Below, piece after piece: positions 31,928 to 34,172 of a DNA stretch of 64,000 nt. Under the pieces are notes generated by a model. That model saw only the letters and a program-made list of their open reading frames with translations. It had not been told where the DNA came from and searched no databases. Every line of letters starts with the position of its first letter. Within the stretch, counting starts at the first letter, position 1. The stretch comes from Pseudomonas laurentiana (GTDB lineage: Bacteria > Pseudomonadota > Gammaproteobacteria > Pseudomonadales > Pseudomonadaceae): positions 62,001 to 126,000 of the forward strand of contig NZ_BMQU01000009.1 of NCBI RefSeq assembly GCF_014648275.1, read 5' to 3'. A program made the position numbers and the translations under genes.

Positions 31928-32926
31928 GTGAAAAAACTCTTCAGTGCCTCGCTTCTCGCCGCAGGCCTGGCCTTGGGCAACCTGGCCCAGGCCGCACCGC
32001 CCCTGCTCAACGTCTCCTATGACGTGATGCGCGACTTCTACAAGGACTACAACAGCGCCTTCCAAAAGCACTGGGAAGCCGAGCACAAAGAGAAAATCGC
32101 CGTACAGATGTCCTTTGGCGGTTCGAGCAAACAGGCACGCTCGGTGATCGACGGCCTGCCTGCCGATGTCATCACCATGAACATGGCCACCGACATCAAT
32201 GCCTTGGCTGACAACGGCAAACTGGTTCCAGAGAACTGGGTGACCCGCCTGCCGAACAACAGCGCACCCTTCACCTCGGCCACCGTGTTCATTGTCCGCA
32301 AGGGCAACCCGAAAGCCCTGAAAGACTGGCCAGACCTGCTCAAGGACGGCGTCCAGGTGATCGTGCCCAACCCGAAAACCTCGGGTAACGGCCGCTACAC
32401 CTACCTTTCGGCCTGGGGCTATGTGCTGAAGAACGGTGGCGACGAGAACAAGGCCAAGGCCTTTGTCGGCAAGCTGTTCAAACAGGCCCCCGTGCTCGAT
32501 ACCGGCGGCCGTGCCGCCACCACCACCTTCATGACCAACCAGATTGGCGACGTGCTGGTGACCTTCGAGAACGAAGCCGAGATGATTGCCCGTGAATTCG
32601 GTCGCGATCAGTTTGAAGTGATCTACCCGAGCGTTTCAGCCGAAGCCGAGCCACCGGTGAGCGTGGTCGACAAAGTGGTCGACAAGAAAGGCAGCCGTGC
32701 CGCCGCCGAGGAATACCTGAAGTACCTGTGGTCGCCCGAGGCTCAGGAAATCGCTGCCAACAACTACCTGCGCCCACGAGACCCTGCCGTACTGGCCAAA
32801 TACACCGACCGCTTCCCGAAAGTCGACTTCCTCTCGGTAGAGAAGACCTTCGGCGACTGGCGCACCGTGCAAAAGACCCACTTCAATGACGGCGGCGTCT
32901 TCGACCAGATCTACACCGGGCAGTAA
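31928..32926 (+). CDS. sbp: Periplasmic sulfate-binding protein
   Basis: 332 residues with a signal peptide (MKKLFSASLLAAGLALGNLA, cleavage after QAA or near). The mature part begins LLNVSYDVMRDFYKDYN and contains FGGSSKQARSVIDGLPADV, VPNPKTSGNGRYTYLSAWGY and TTTFMTNQIGDVLVTFENEA, the sulfate/thiosulfate-binding Sbp/CysP pattern. GTG start at 31928 has AAGGA 7 bases upstream. No CysTWA transporter genes are adjacent, so it must work with subunits encoded elsewhere. The AT-rich upstream stretch (31838-31862) may hold a CysB site. Confidence 0.93.
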   Translation: MKKLFSASLLAAGLALGNLAQAAPPLLNVSYDVMRDFYKDYNSAFQKHWEAEHKEKIAVQMSFGGSSKQARSVIDGLPADVITMNMATDINALADNGKLVPENWVTRLPNNSAPFTSATVFIVRKGNPKALKDWPDLLKDGVQVIVPNPKTSGNGRYTYLSAWGYVLKNGGDENKAKAFVGKLFKQAPVLDTGGRAATTTFMTNQIGDVLVTFENEAEMIAREFGRDQFEVIYPSVSAEAEPPVSVVDKVVDKKGSRAAAEEYLKYLWSPEAQEIAANNYLRPRDPAVLAKYTDRFPKVDFLSVEKTFGDWRTVQKTHFNDGGVFDQIYTGQ

Positions 32927-32938
32927 GCAACGCCTTGA

Positions 32939-32984
32939 TCGCTGGCAAGCCAACACCCATTTTCTGTGGGAACTGGCTTGCCTG
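32939..32984. repeat. REP-type inverted pair after sbp
   Basis: ATCGCTGGCAAGCCAA and TTGCCTGCGATGGC-type halves face each other around a short spacer. The right half is shared with the start of the duplicated leader unit that follows. Confidence 0.65.
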
Positions 32985-33410
32985 CGATGGCTTTGCCGGG
33001 GTGTCAGTCAGTGCGCGGTGTCGGCAATCGTTGGCAAGCCAACTCCCACAGGGTGCACATAGTCCCCCTCACCTTGATGGCTGAATCCAGCTACAGGAAT
33101 TATCCTACAACCTCTGTCCACCTCGAGTGATTGCACGGGGAAGCGCTTCGCACGTAGTCTCGAACGGTCGCTGATGTTTCAGCGATCGGGTTTGGCGACC
33201 CGGGAAACGATACCAACGAGCAACCATTAGAGCGCGCAGATGCCAGCAGGCATAAGTGCAGTTTTTATGGTGGCCGTGTGTGGGAGGGCTTCGGCCCTGC
33301 CGGGTTATCCTGGTGTCGTCCCGGTTCGCCAACCTGCACACGGCTGCCACCCATTTCGTTTGGCGACGAGCATGTGGCAGCTCCATTACGACTCCAGGAA
33401 CACTGCATTC
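32963..33410 (+). repeat. Structured leader element, upstream copy without a gene
   Basis: First of two tandem units of about 440 bases (the other starts at 33411). The first 220 bases are nearly identical in both, with only about eight differences. Conserved paired elements: stem 33165-33174 with 33179-33188; a TTCG-capped stem 33285-33289 with 33294-33298; a long-range stem in which 33192-33204 pairs with 33320-33332 with one mismatch; and a hairpin 33343-33350 with 33374-33381 whose loop shows TTGGCGA again. Where the other copy reaches a start codon, this copy has none and runs into the next unit. Read on the plus strand, toward the DUF3077-like gene. Confidence 0.75.
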
Positions 33411-33848
33411 TCTGTGGGAGCAGGCTTGCCTGCGATGGCTTTGGCGGGGTGTCAGTCAGTGCGCGGTGTCGGCAATCGTTGGCAAGCCAACTCCCACAGG
33501 GTGCACATAGTCCCCCTCACCTTGATGGCCGAATCCAGCTTTAGGAATTATCCTACAACCCCTGTCCGCCTCGAGTGATTGCACGGGGAAGCGCTTCGCA
33601 CGTAGTCTCGAACGGTCGCTGACGTTTCAGCGATCGGGTTTGGCGACCCGGGAATATATGCAGAGATGCCCCGATTTCGATGGTTGGCGTGATAGACGTC
33701 TGCGTCGTTTTTATGGTGGCTGTGCGCGGGAGGGCTTCGGCCCTGCCGGATTTCCTGTGTTGACCGGTTCGCCAACCTGCGTACAGCTGCCACCCTTTCG
33801 TTTGGCGACGGCTCCGGTGGTAGCTCCAGTTCAATACAGGAGTTCACC
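33411..33848 (+). promoter_or_regulatory. Structured leader of the DUF3077-like gene, downstream copy
   Basis: Second unit, ending at the start codon of the gene at 33849. Matching elements: stem 33616-33622 with 33627-33633; TTCG-capped stem 33731-33735 with 33740-33744; long-range stem 33640-33651 with 33764-33775 (one mismatch); and hairpin 33785-33794 with 33816-33825, whose 21-base loop contains TTGGCGA at 33802-33808. TCGCCAA at 33769-33775 can pair either with 33640-33646 or with that loop. The hairpin ends 12 bases before the AGGAG at 33838-33842, so the choice could affect translation. The part between about 33653 and 33709 differs from the first copy. Confidence 0.72.
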
Positions 33849-34172
33849 ATGAAAAAAATCGTCCCCGATCCCCCCGCGTTCCTTTTCGCCCAAACAGCCG
33901 AAACCACCTTTGGCGAGTGCGAAGGGCACCCGCCGTTGTTTACCGTGCGACCGGGCATCAGTGCTGAAGACGCACTGGTCCATGCGGCTCTCTATCTCAA
34001 ATGCGCCATCGATACGTGCCCTCAGGCCGTGCAGTACACCGATGAAACGGGCCGTGGTTTTGCCTGGAGCACGCTGCATTCGGTGCAAATGGCCAAAGGG
34101 CTGATCGATGCCGTGCTCGACGGCATCGAAAGCCACAACCTGAACGAGCACCGCGAAGCGCAGAACCACTAG
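33849..34172 (+). CDS. Small DUF3077-like protein
   Basis: 107 residues beginning MKKIVPDPPAFLF, the usual opening of a small Pseudomonas-restricted family (DUF3077 or the related DUF6124) present in many copies per genome. The core FTVRPGISAEDALVHAALYL and FAWSTLHSVQMAKGLIDAVL is amphipathic-helical. No signal peptide or catalytic motif. AGGAG at 33838-33842 lies 6 bases before the ATG. The gene has a remarkably long, duplicated, structured leader. Its stop overlaps that of the convergent methyltransferase gene. Function is unknown. Confidence 0.8.
   Translation: MKKIVPDPPAFLFAQTAETTFGECEGHPPLFTVRPGISAEDALVHAALYLKCAIDTCPQAVQYTDETGRGFAWSTLHSVQMAKGLIDAVLDGIESHNLNEHREAQNH

Follow-up and report, generated by a model that had tools for sequence, protein, structure and literature searches.

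Tandem C4 antisense RNA units upstream of a DUF3077 gene in Pseudomonas laurentiana, and related cassettes across Pseudomonas

Introduction

The C4 antisense RNA and its role in the bacteriophages P1 and P7 are already described in the available portions of earlier accounts (PMC8198154, PMC12197685, PMC2864571). The chromosomal C4-like small RNAs of Acinetobacter baumannii (Group 1) are reported, on the basis of RNA-seq, to be processed at a GG motif (PMC5320573). The order of elements in the P1 record is a1, b1, C4, a2, b2, icd, and ant1. As read from the P1 sequence, the linker of C4 (a', CTGTCAA) pairs with TTGACAG on either side, and the partner of its P3 loop (b') is the Shine-Dalgarno region of icd.

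Here we describe a locus within a 64,000-nucleotide stretch of the Pseudomonas laurentiana genome (the window). A first-pass annotation had identified, in front of a DUF3077-like gene, a leader that is structured and duplicated in tandem and in which some pairings exclude one another, and this description is right. We compare the locus with the phage system and with its relatives in Pseudomonas.

Results

Layout of the locus

The tandem units are located between a solute-binding-protein gene (31928–32926) and a convergent methyltransferase gene (Table 1). The duplication is real, with the largest repeat (D1; 32958–33206 and 33406–33654) being 249 nt in length, 96% identical, and spaced by 448; shorter duplicated blocks (D2, D5, and D6) occur further 3' of it. 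Copy 2 is followed by a gene for a DUF3077 protein, at the position occupied by icd-ant in P1, and copy 1 has no gene. Both duplicated units contain inverted repeats (CTGTGGGA...GGCTTGCCTGCGATGGC, at 32938–33051 and 33412–33499), which we take to resemble Pseudomonas REP elements. Recombination between these REP-like repeats could explain the tandem copy.

Table 1. Positions of features in the window.
Feature	Position	Strand	Description
Copy-1 repeat unit	32958–33405	+	Repeat-containing intergenic DNA, promoter-like boxes, a1b1, C4-1, a2, b2 remnant; D1/D2/D5/D6
Copy-1 promoter-like boxes	33131–33160	+	TTGCAC-18-TAGTCT; weak, putative
Copy-1 c4-a1b1	33154–33206	+	RF03163, 47.9 bits; a1 in hairpin loop (33192–33198)
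Copy-1 possible b1	33207–33214	+	ACGATACC, by eye; pairs with GGTGTCGT of C4-1 loop, one G-U
C4-1 antisense RNA	33269–33351	+	RF01695; mature ends predicted by P1 analogy; a' 33326–33332, P3-loop b' 33309–33319
Copy-1 a2	33360–33366	+	TTGGCGA
Copy-1 b2 remnant	33388–33398	+	ACGACTCCAGG; complementary to C4-1 loop, one mismatch; no gene behind
Inverted repeat	33542–33555		TAGGAATTATCCTA; upstream of copy-2 promoter-like boxes
Copy-2 promoter-like boxes	33579–33608	+	TTGCAC-18-TAGTCT; weak, putative
Copy-2 c4-a1b1	33602–33654	+	RF03163, 49.8 bits; a1 in hairpin loop (33640–33646)
C4-2 antisense RNA	33715–33794	+	RF01695; predicted 80-nt mature form; a' 33769–33775, P3-loop b' 33754–33763
Alternative hairpin	33786–33824	+	33786–33794 (C4-2 3' arm) with 33816–33824; a2 (33802–33808) between arms; folding, weak covariation
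Copy-2 b2	33831–33842	+	TCAATACAGG 33831–33840 and AGGAG 33838–33842, over Shine-Dalgarno; pairs with C4-2 loop
Target gene	33849–34172	+	DUF3077 protein, 107 amino acids; PF11275, 32.1 bits (threshold 21)

The corresponding locus of P. defluvii (L119) has a single C4, and so the tandem copy is not common to P. defluvii. This is also the only locus that shares the flanking genes of the window among 80 DUF3077 loci (the best 80 of 210; 79 titled Pseudomonas and one Pantoea). A further 19 genomes have the flanking methyltransferase, and at this orthologous site none has a C4 in the flanks examined; the solute-binding-protein gene was likewise not found there, and these sites therefore do not constitute proof of an empty site.

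Both units contain a C4 antisense RNA

Searches with Rfam models matched C4 antisense RNA (RF01695) at 33263–33354 (76.5 bits) and 33709–33797 (81.1 bits), both above the gathering score of 45, and c4-a1b1 (RF03163) ahead of each, both above the threshold of 46.7 bits. The first-pass annotation had advised looking for Rfam families and could not itself match the leader to a named class; both copies do match one. C4 and c4-a1b1 are the only Rfam families above threshold in the window. Riboswitches and other named cis-regulatory RNAs were rejected as candidates, since no such family was found at its gathering score in the window or at E≤0.01 in 32900–33900. The isrK model (RF01394) matches the a1b1 regions at 29.3 and 28.1 bits, below its gathering score of 50, and the units were not assigned to it.

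Compared with dinucleotide shuffles, the folding energies of the two C4 stretches are better by 4.2 and 4.4 sd. Because both copies pass two curated Rfam thresholds and fold better than shuffles, the units are structured beyond chance. In the minimum-energy folds of both C4s the closing stem is kept, but the P2 and P3 hairpins that the Rfam consensus has inside it are not. The three-stem fold of RF01695 is kept by covariation among relatives. In an alignment of 50 sequences (26 C4s of the own genome and 24 from the best 80 of 210 homologous loci), standard pairs fill 98.9% of pair cells and 16 of 27 pairs are changed on both sides, as compared to 7.6 in shuffles (0 of 500 reach 16).

Pairing sites

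Read on the P1 layout, the TCGCCAA of each unit is a', the four TTGGCGA heptamers are a1 and a2 of both units, and the P3 loops hold b'. All six heptamers (starting at 33326 and 33769 for TCGCCAA, and at 33192, 33360, 33640, and 33802 for TTGGCGA) were placed correctly in the first-pass annotation, which therefore had the a', a1, and a2 elements but missed the decisive pairing, in which the P3 loop (b') meets b2 at the Shine-Dalgarno sequence. The a'-a1 stem of 11–12 bp that it proposed was not reproduced as such, with 7–9 pairs being found. Between the P3 loop of C4-2 and the DUF3077 Shine-Dalgarno region, 12 contiguous positions pair (-19.5 kcal/mol), and the P3 loop of C4-1 pairs with the Shine-Dalgarno-like remnant behind its own a2 (-18.7 kcal/mol), whereas the crossed pairings between the copies amount to -7.7 and -11.4 kcal/mol. 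Sequence inspection of copy 2 yielded no convincing b1.

As in a P1-type C4 operon, a' is complementary to a1 upstream and a2 downstream, and the b' loop is complementary to b2 over the ribosome-binding site. Downstream, icd and ant are replaced by DUF3077 in the window, and by DUF6124 or Bro-N elsewhere. A GG occurs at the predicted 5' end of C4; in P1, RNase P cleavage yields a ~77-nt RNA. A further partner for a', GGTTGGCG (33682–33689), is located between a1b1 and C4-2 and is energetically stronger (-14.2 kcal/mol); this extra partner is absent as such from the copy-1 result.

Upstream elements

The promoter-like boxes of both copies were not called by a strict promoter scan. Boxes of the form TTG...N15-19TA...T occur within 300 nt 5' of C4 in 23/26 cassettes of the own genome, 48/55 of genome G049, and 60/80 of the loci (best 80 of 210), as compared to 21–25% of shuffles. 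The boxes of the window suggest a leader start close to 33610–33616 instead of near 33430 as earlier supposed. Repeats of the TAGGA-N4-TCCTA type, as upstream of the copy-2 boxes, are found within 300 nt 5' of C4 in 8/26 own cassettes, 20/80 loci (best 80 of 210), and 0/55 in G049 (0.1–0.4% of shuffles), and are a candidate regulator-binding site.

In four cassettes (L001, L004, L012, and L019), a GC-rich stem followed by a T run is located between a1 and C4, recalling by eye the IsrK terminator. Runs of at least five T within 60 nt of C4 occur in 6/26, 16/55, and 5/80 (best 80 of 210) units, respectively, and in 3–5% of shuffles.

An alternative hairpin at the 3' end of C4

The last hairpin folds as had been claimed, with 33786–33794 pairing with 33816–33824, and the G-C pair of copy 1 that is G-U in copy 2 (33789/33821) was confirmed from the sequence. 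This hairpin borrows the 3' arm of the closing stem of C4 and thereby excludes the closing stem. One rival reading is a cis-acting switch, similar to a riboswitch or attenuator, in which the C4 fold alternates with the downstream hairpin and no separate RNA is involved. Hairpins of at least 7 pairs are found in 11/15 own cassettes, 22/49 in G049, and 24/80 loci (best 80 of 210), as compared to 8–10% of shuffles, and a similar hairpin can be read by eye in P1. The sub-threshold match to isrK also points this way, as the IsrK locus is reported, in the available part of the account, to have alternative structures (PMC4825925).

However, the hairpin arms match their own partners little better than those of other cassettes. 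The mean run is 7.67 for self and 7.64 for non-self combinations in the own genome (4677 of 10,000 permutations reach self), 6.61 and 6.16 in G049 (15 of 10,000), and 6.25 and 6.05 in the 80 loci (best 80 of 210; 125 of 10,000). The hairpin is therefore above chance yet weakly covarying, while the antisense pairings covary strongly. The C4 stretch is also more stable than the alternative (-45.1 versus -22.3 kcal/mol, over overlapping but different stretches). We consider a cis-acting switch improbable. The earlier wording, a cis-acting RNA switch or translational control element, is apt in that a role in translation is likely, but the P1 class is a separate base-pairing RNA and not a ligand-sensing switch.

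Proposed mechanism

We judge it highly probable that this is a C4 operon of the P1 type, with DUF3077 in the place of icd-ant and a gene-less tandem C4 upstream, and that C4 represses translation. Each unit would be transcribed, and the transcript would fold into the a1b1 hairpins and the C4 RNA, as comparison among relatives supports. By analogy to P1, RNase P would cut at the GG of the closing stem to release an RNA of ~80 nt. The linker a' of this RNA is predicted from computed complementarity to bind a2, and the P3-loop b' to bind b2 across the Shine-Dalgarno sequence, such that DUF3077 would not be translated. C4 is thus predicted to block translation of the adjoining DUF3077 gene. The a1 site, and b1 where present, may serve as upstream sites for the same C4 RNA and are perhaps autoregulatory.

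Because the a' of C4-1 is that of C4-2 as well, C4-1 could still contact the copy-2 a2, though its loop pairs poorly with the copy-2 Shine-Dalgarno sequence. It appears to be an orphan or to act in trans on another cassette. Its best target is that of cassette L020 (-23.4 kcal/mol), which makes a role in trans possible. Another gene-less C4 of the own genome (L005, G000:C3:4013-4099) pairs with the target of L003 at -28.3 kcal/mol, the mean for cognate pairs being -25.0 kcal/mol, and is a candidate for trans regulation of L003.

The C4 family and its linkage to DUF3077 and DUF6124

The cassette belongs to a large family that is dispersed across the chromosomes of Pseudomonas and in which most members match their own target best. 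The genus of the genomes compared is taken to be Pseudomonas from the named loci. The window genome has 26 C4 matches above threshold, and C4 occurs in 53 of 59 genomes of the genus (own included), with up to 53 copies; at a laxer setting, 55 C4s are found in G049. In a sample of the class (114 genomes, one per genus, own included; stricter filters), C4 occurs in five others, with at most three copies, and DUF3077 in no other genome at E≤0.0001.

In three single-contig genomes, 110 of 131 DUF3077/DUF6124 genes (40/46, 31/38, and 39/47) have a C4 on the same strand within 600 nt upstream, and a further 1, 2, and 1 of these genes have a C4 in another arrangement. Conversely, 109 of 139 C4s in these genomes (40/55, 31/42, and 38/42) have such a gene behind them and 30 do not. 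Read by eye, 13 of 15 DUF3077 matches in the window genome follow a C4. No C4 was detected at two own DUF3077 genes (L027 and L028, G000:C8), which by eye keep a1b1-like hairpins; these are possibly freed from other C4s or trans targets of them. A C4 is just upstream in all 80 DUF3077 homologous loci (best 80 of 210), as found with an alignment of the DUF3077 subfamily.

Carriage by phages or plasmids was rejected, as searches of such records were near-empty. Neither the 50,697 phage records nor the 72,556 plasmid records contained a match to the DUF3077 protein of the window, and a DUF6124 protein had no plasmid match and a sole phage match at the extreme edge of its record (55–405 of 22,689). 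One viral contig has a C4 along with a 28% identical protein, and DUF3077 has matches to two PHROG families, both of unknown function.

Matched addresses

The P3 loop is the most variable region of C4 (1.73 bits among 79 C4s of two genomes), followed by the linker (1.10 bits) and the stem arms (0.57 and 0.67 bits). The loop nevertheless matches its target. Among the 141 C4s for which a start codon was assigned (a number of starts were placed or deleted manually), 99 have a run of at least 8 pairs between P3 loop and Shine-Dalgarno region, as compared to 5.7% of non-cognate combinations. This holds for 15/15 cassettes of the own genome, 28/48 of G049, and 56/78 of the loci (from the best 80 of 210), with non-cognate values of 17.6, 5.1, and 5.6%, respectively, and 0 of 10,000 permutations per set, which treat related cassettes as independent, reach the observed mean. 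Runs of at least 7 pairs between a' and a2 occur in 18/26, 47/53, and 74/78 cassettes of these sets, with non-cognate values of 6.0, 7.0, and 23.9%, respectively. The 8- and 7-pair thresholds were chosen after a first pairing scan, in which the loop of L007 was misplaced and retained. The pairing set retained 157 of 161 C4s (L114, L115, L153, and L157 were dropped), and one pairing analysis left out 4 of 55 C4s that could not be parsed. In 106 cassettes, a run of at least 8 pairs falls in the 40 nt before the start, and 73 of these overlap a Shine-Dalgarno-like core as we define it.

When both sites are scored jointly, the cognate target is best for 15/15 C4s of the own genome and 34/48 of G049. 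Non-cognate combinations as strong as the median cognate one make up 1.07 and 0.40%, respectively. In G049, a non-cognate target is predicted to be as strong as the cognate one, or stronger, for 14/48 C4s, and 20/48 lack a run of 8 pairs. Insulation looks near-complete in the own genome and partial in G049.

These codes bear on a rival reading, in which the C4s are kept as a defence against phages whose antirepressor operons are of the C4 type and the neighbouring gene is incidental. C4 gives heteroimmunity between P1 and P7 in the available part of the account (PMC12197685), a defensive role is raised by the Acinetobacter authors for their C4 family in the part of their report available (PMC5320573), and the a' heptamer of L003 in the own genome is identical to that of P1. 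However, the codes match the Shine-Dalgarno region of the adjoining gene, and the linkage to DUF3077/DUF6124 is strong, such that we find this explanation highly unlikely.

For the 25 G049 pairs whose 3' 210 nt are at least 85% identical, the P3 loops have an identity of 0.53, as compared to a background of 0.51 (all 903 pairs), and the C4 stem measure is 0.73, as compared to 0.74 (the stretches are not quite identical). As the stem is also no closer than background, leader and gene may have been shuffled, and these pairs do not prove diversifying selection on the addresses.

Selection and function of the downstream proteins

Close paralogues are under purifying selection, with a median dN/dS of 0.052 and a maximum of 0.249 (25 G049 pairs, 3' 210 nt, which share genes and are non-independent). 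The leaders of the window and P. defluvii share 245 of 250 bases, and the gene has a dN of 0.025 and a dS of 0.164 between the two. These values weigh against a decaying phage remnant, in which C4 units would be relics without present function. Decay would fit the gene-less copy 1, other gene-less or broken cassettes (e.g., L012), and DUF3077 loci that have a1b1-like leaders but no C4. It fits poorly with low dN/dS, with a leader nearly unchanged while synonymous sites diverged, and with matched codes in many loci, and we give it very little credence.

The DUF3077 protein is modeled as a confident helical hairpin (mean pLDDT 89.4). No PDB match was found at E≤0.001, and so no function could be read from the fold. 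The protein might be harmful, with C4 acting as antitoxin; the RNA mechanism would be the same and only the role of DUF3077/DUF6124 would differ. Classical type I toxin-antitoxin pairs are unlike this locus, in which RNA and target are on one strand and probably in one transcript. Neither PADLOC, run on two proteins, nor the fold search (E≤0.001) gave a hint in this direction. On the other hand, many dispersed copies exist, most behind their own RNA, and the available parts of two accounts describe inhibition of cell division by P1 Icd (PMC8198154) and control of a toxic protein by the related IsrK locus (PMC4825925). A toxin-antitoxin role is doubtful in our judgment.

Bro-N is a domain known from antirepressors. 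Bro-N proteins occur in three C4 cassettes of G049, in one of which (L114) the C4 is below the Rfam cut-off (39.8 bits), and one has an N-terminus (MIKVTPNPP) of the DUF6124 kind. In L002, L009, L062, L064, and L105, two open reading frames overlap, a short one at the Shine-Dalgarno sequence and DUF3077 behind it, similar to icd-ant1. The Bro-N cargo and the overlapping frames fit descent from a phage immunity operon. Four G049 cassettes (L070, L073, L109, and L110) have an unnamed small-protein family without Pfam match behind C4. No homology of these proteins to DUF3077/DUF6124 was detectable, and such a relationship (family A3) was not supported (probability 0.2%).

Discussion

Most likely, these cassettes represent a phage-immunity RNA module that has been domesticated and expanded and whose addresses are largely private. 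We tentatively extend this to a repertoire in Pseudomonas of tens of domesticated phage-immunity cassettes, in each of which a small gene is silenced by its own C4 with two addresses that are largely private, a proposal that is possible and that we hold with some reserve. That conserved genes carry different addresses parallels phage immunity groups and suggests that a gene would be expressed only when its own C4 is absent or falling. If so, expression would occur on entry into a cell without the matching code, or upon disturbed supply or processing of C4. DUF3077 and DUF6124, which are families of unknown function, would gain a regulator. Chromosomal targets of C4 are left open in the available part of the Acinetobacter account (PMC5320573), and the cassettes would supply many adjacent antisense-target pairs. 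Having many mostly private pairs in one cell would allow direct measurement of how two-site RNA recognition works and of how private addresses evolve.

In the literature covered, which excluded most subscription journals, we found no account of a link between C4 and DUF3077/DUF6124 or of matched codes. Several described systems are related. The antisense RNA CI of phage P4 is also processed, from a transcript that contains sites complementary to it on both sides, but acts by premature termination of transcription, according to the available part of the account (PMC4825925). The same source, in the part available, describes a stable processed RNA downstream of IsrK in the Gifsy-1 IsrK-orf45-anrP locus and a short open reading frame coupled to an antirepressor-like gene, and the isrK model matches the a1b1 regions of the window below threshold; however, Gifsy-1 is a prophage and IsrK is reported to activate translation (PMC4825925), whereas repression is proposed here. 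The Acinetobacter baumannii Group 1 RNAs similarly form a large chromosomal family, with 21 members in one genome; the available part of that report gives no adjacent target (PMC5320573), whereas here the target is next door and matched in code.

A further close system is the immI operon (c4-icd-ant) of phages P1 and P7. It belongs to the same C4 family and has the upstream sites, C4, a2, and b2 in the same order. Its b2 likewise lies at the ribosome site, the linker and the P3 loop of C4 provide a' and b', respectively, and its icd/ant1 overlap has a counterpart in the short frame overlapping DUF3077 in five cassettes. The differences are that DUF3077 or DUF6124 is downstream here, whereas Ant1 of P1 matches PF03374, and that the Pseudomonas cassettes are chromosomal and multi-copy, with codes that vary between copies. 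The single locus is a C4 operon of a known kind, and what is new is the family-wide arrangement.
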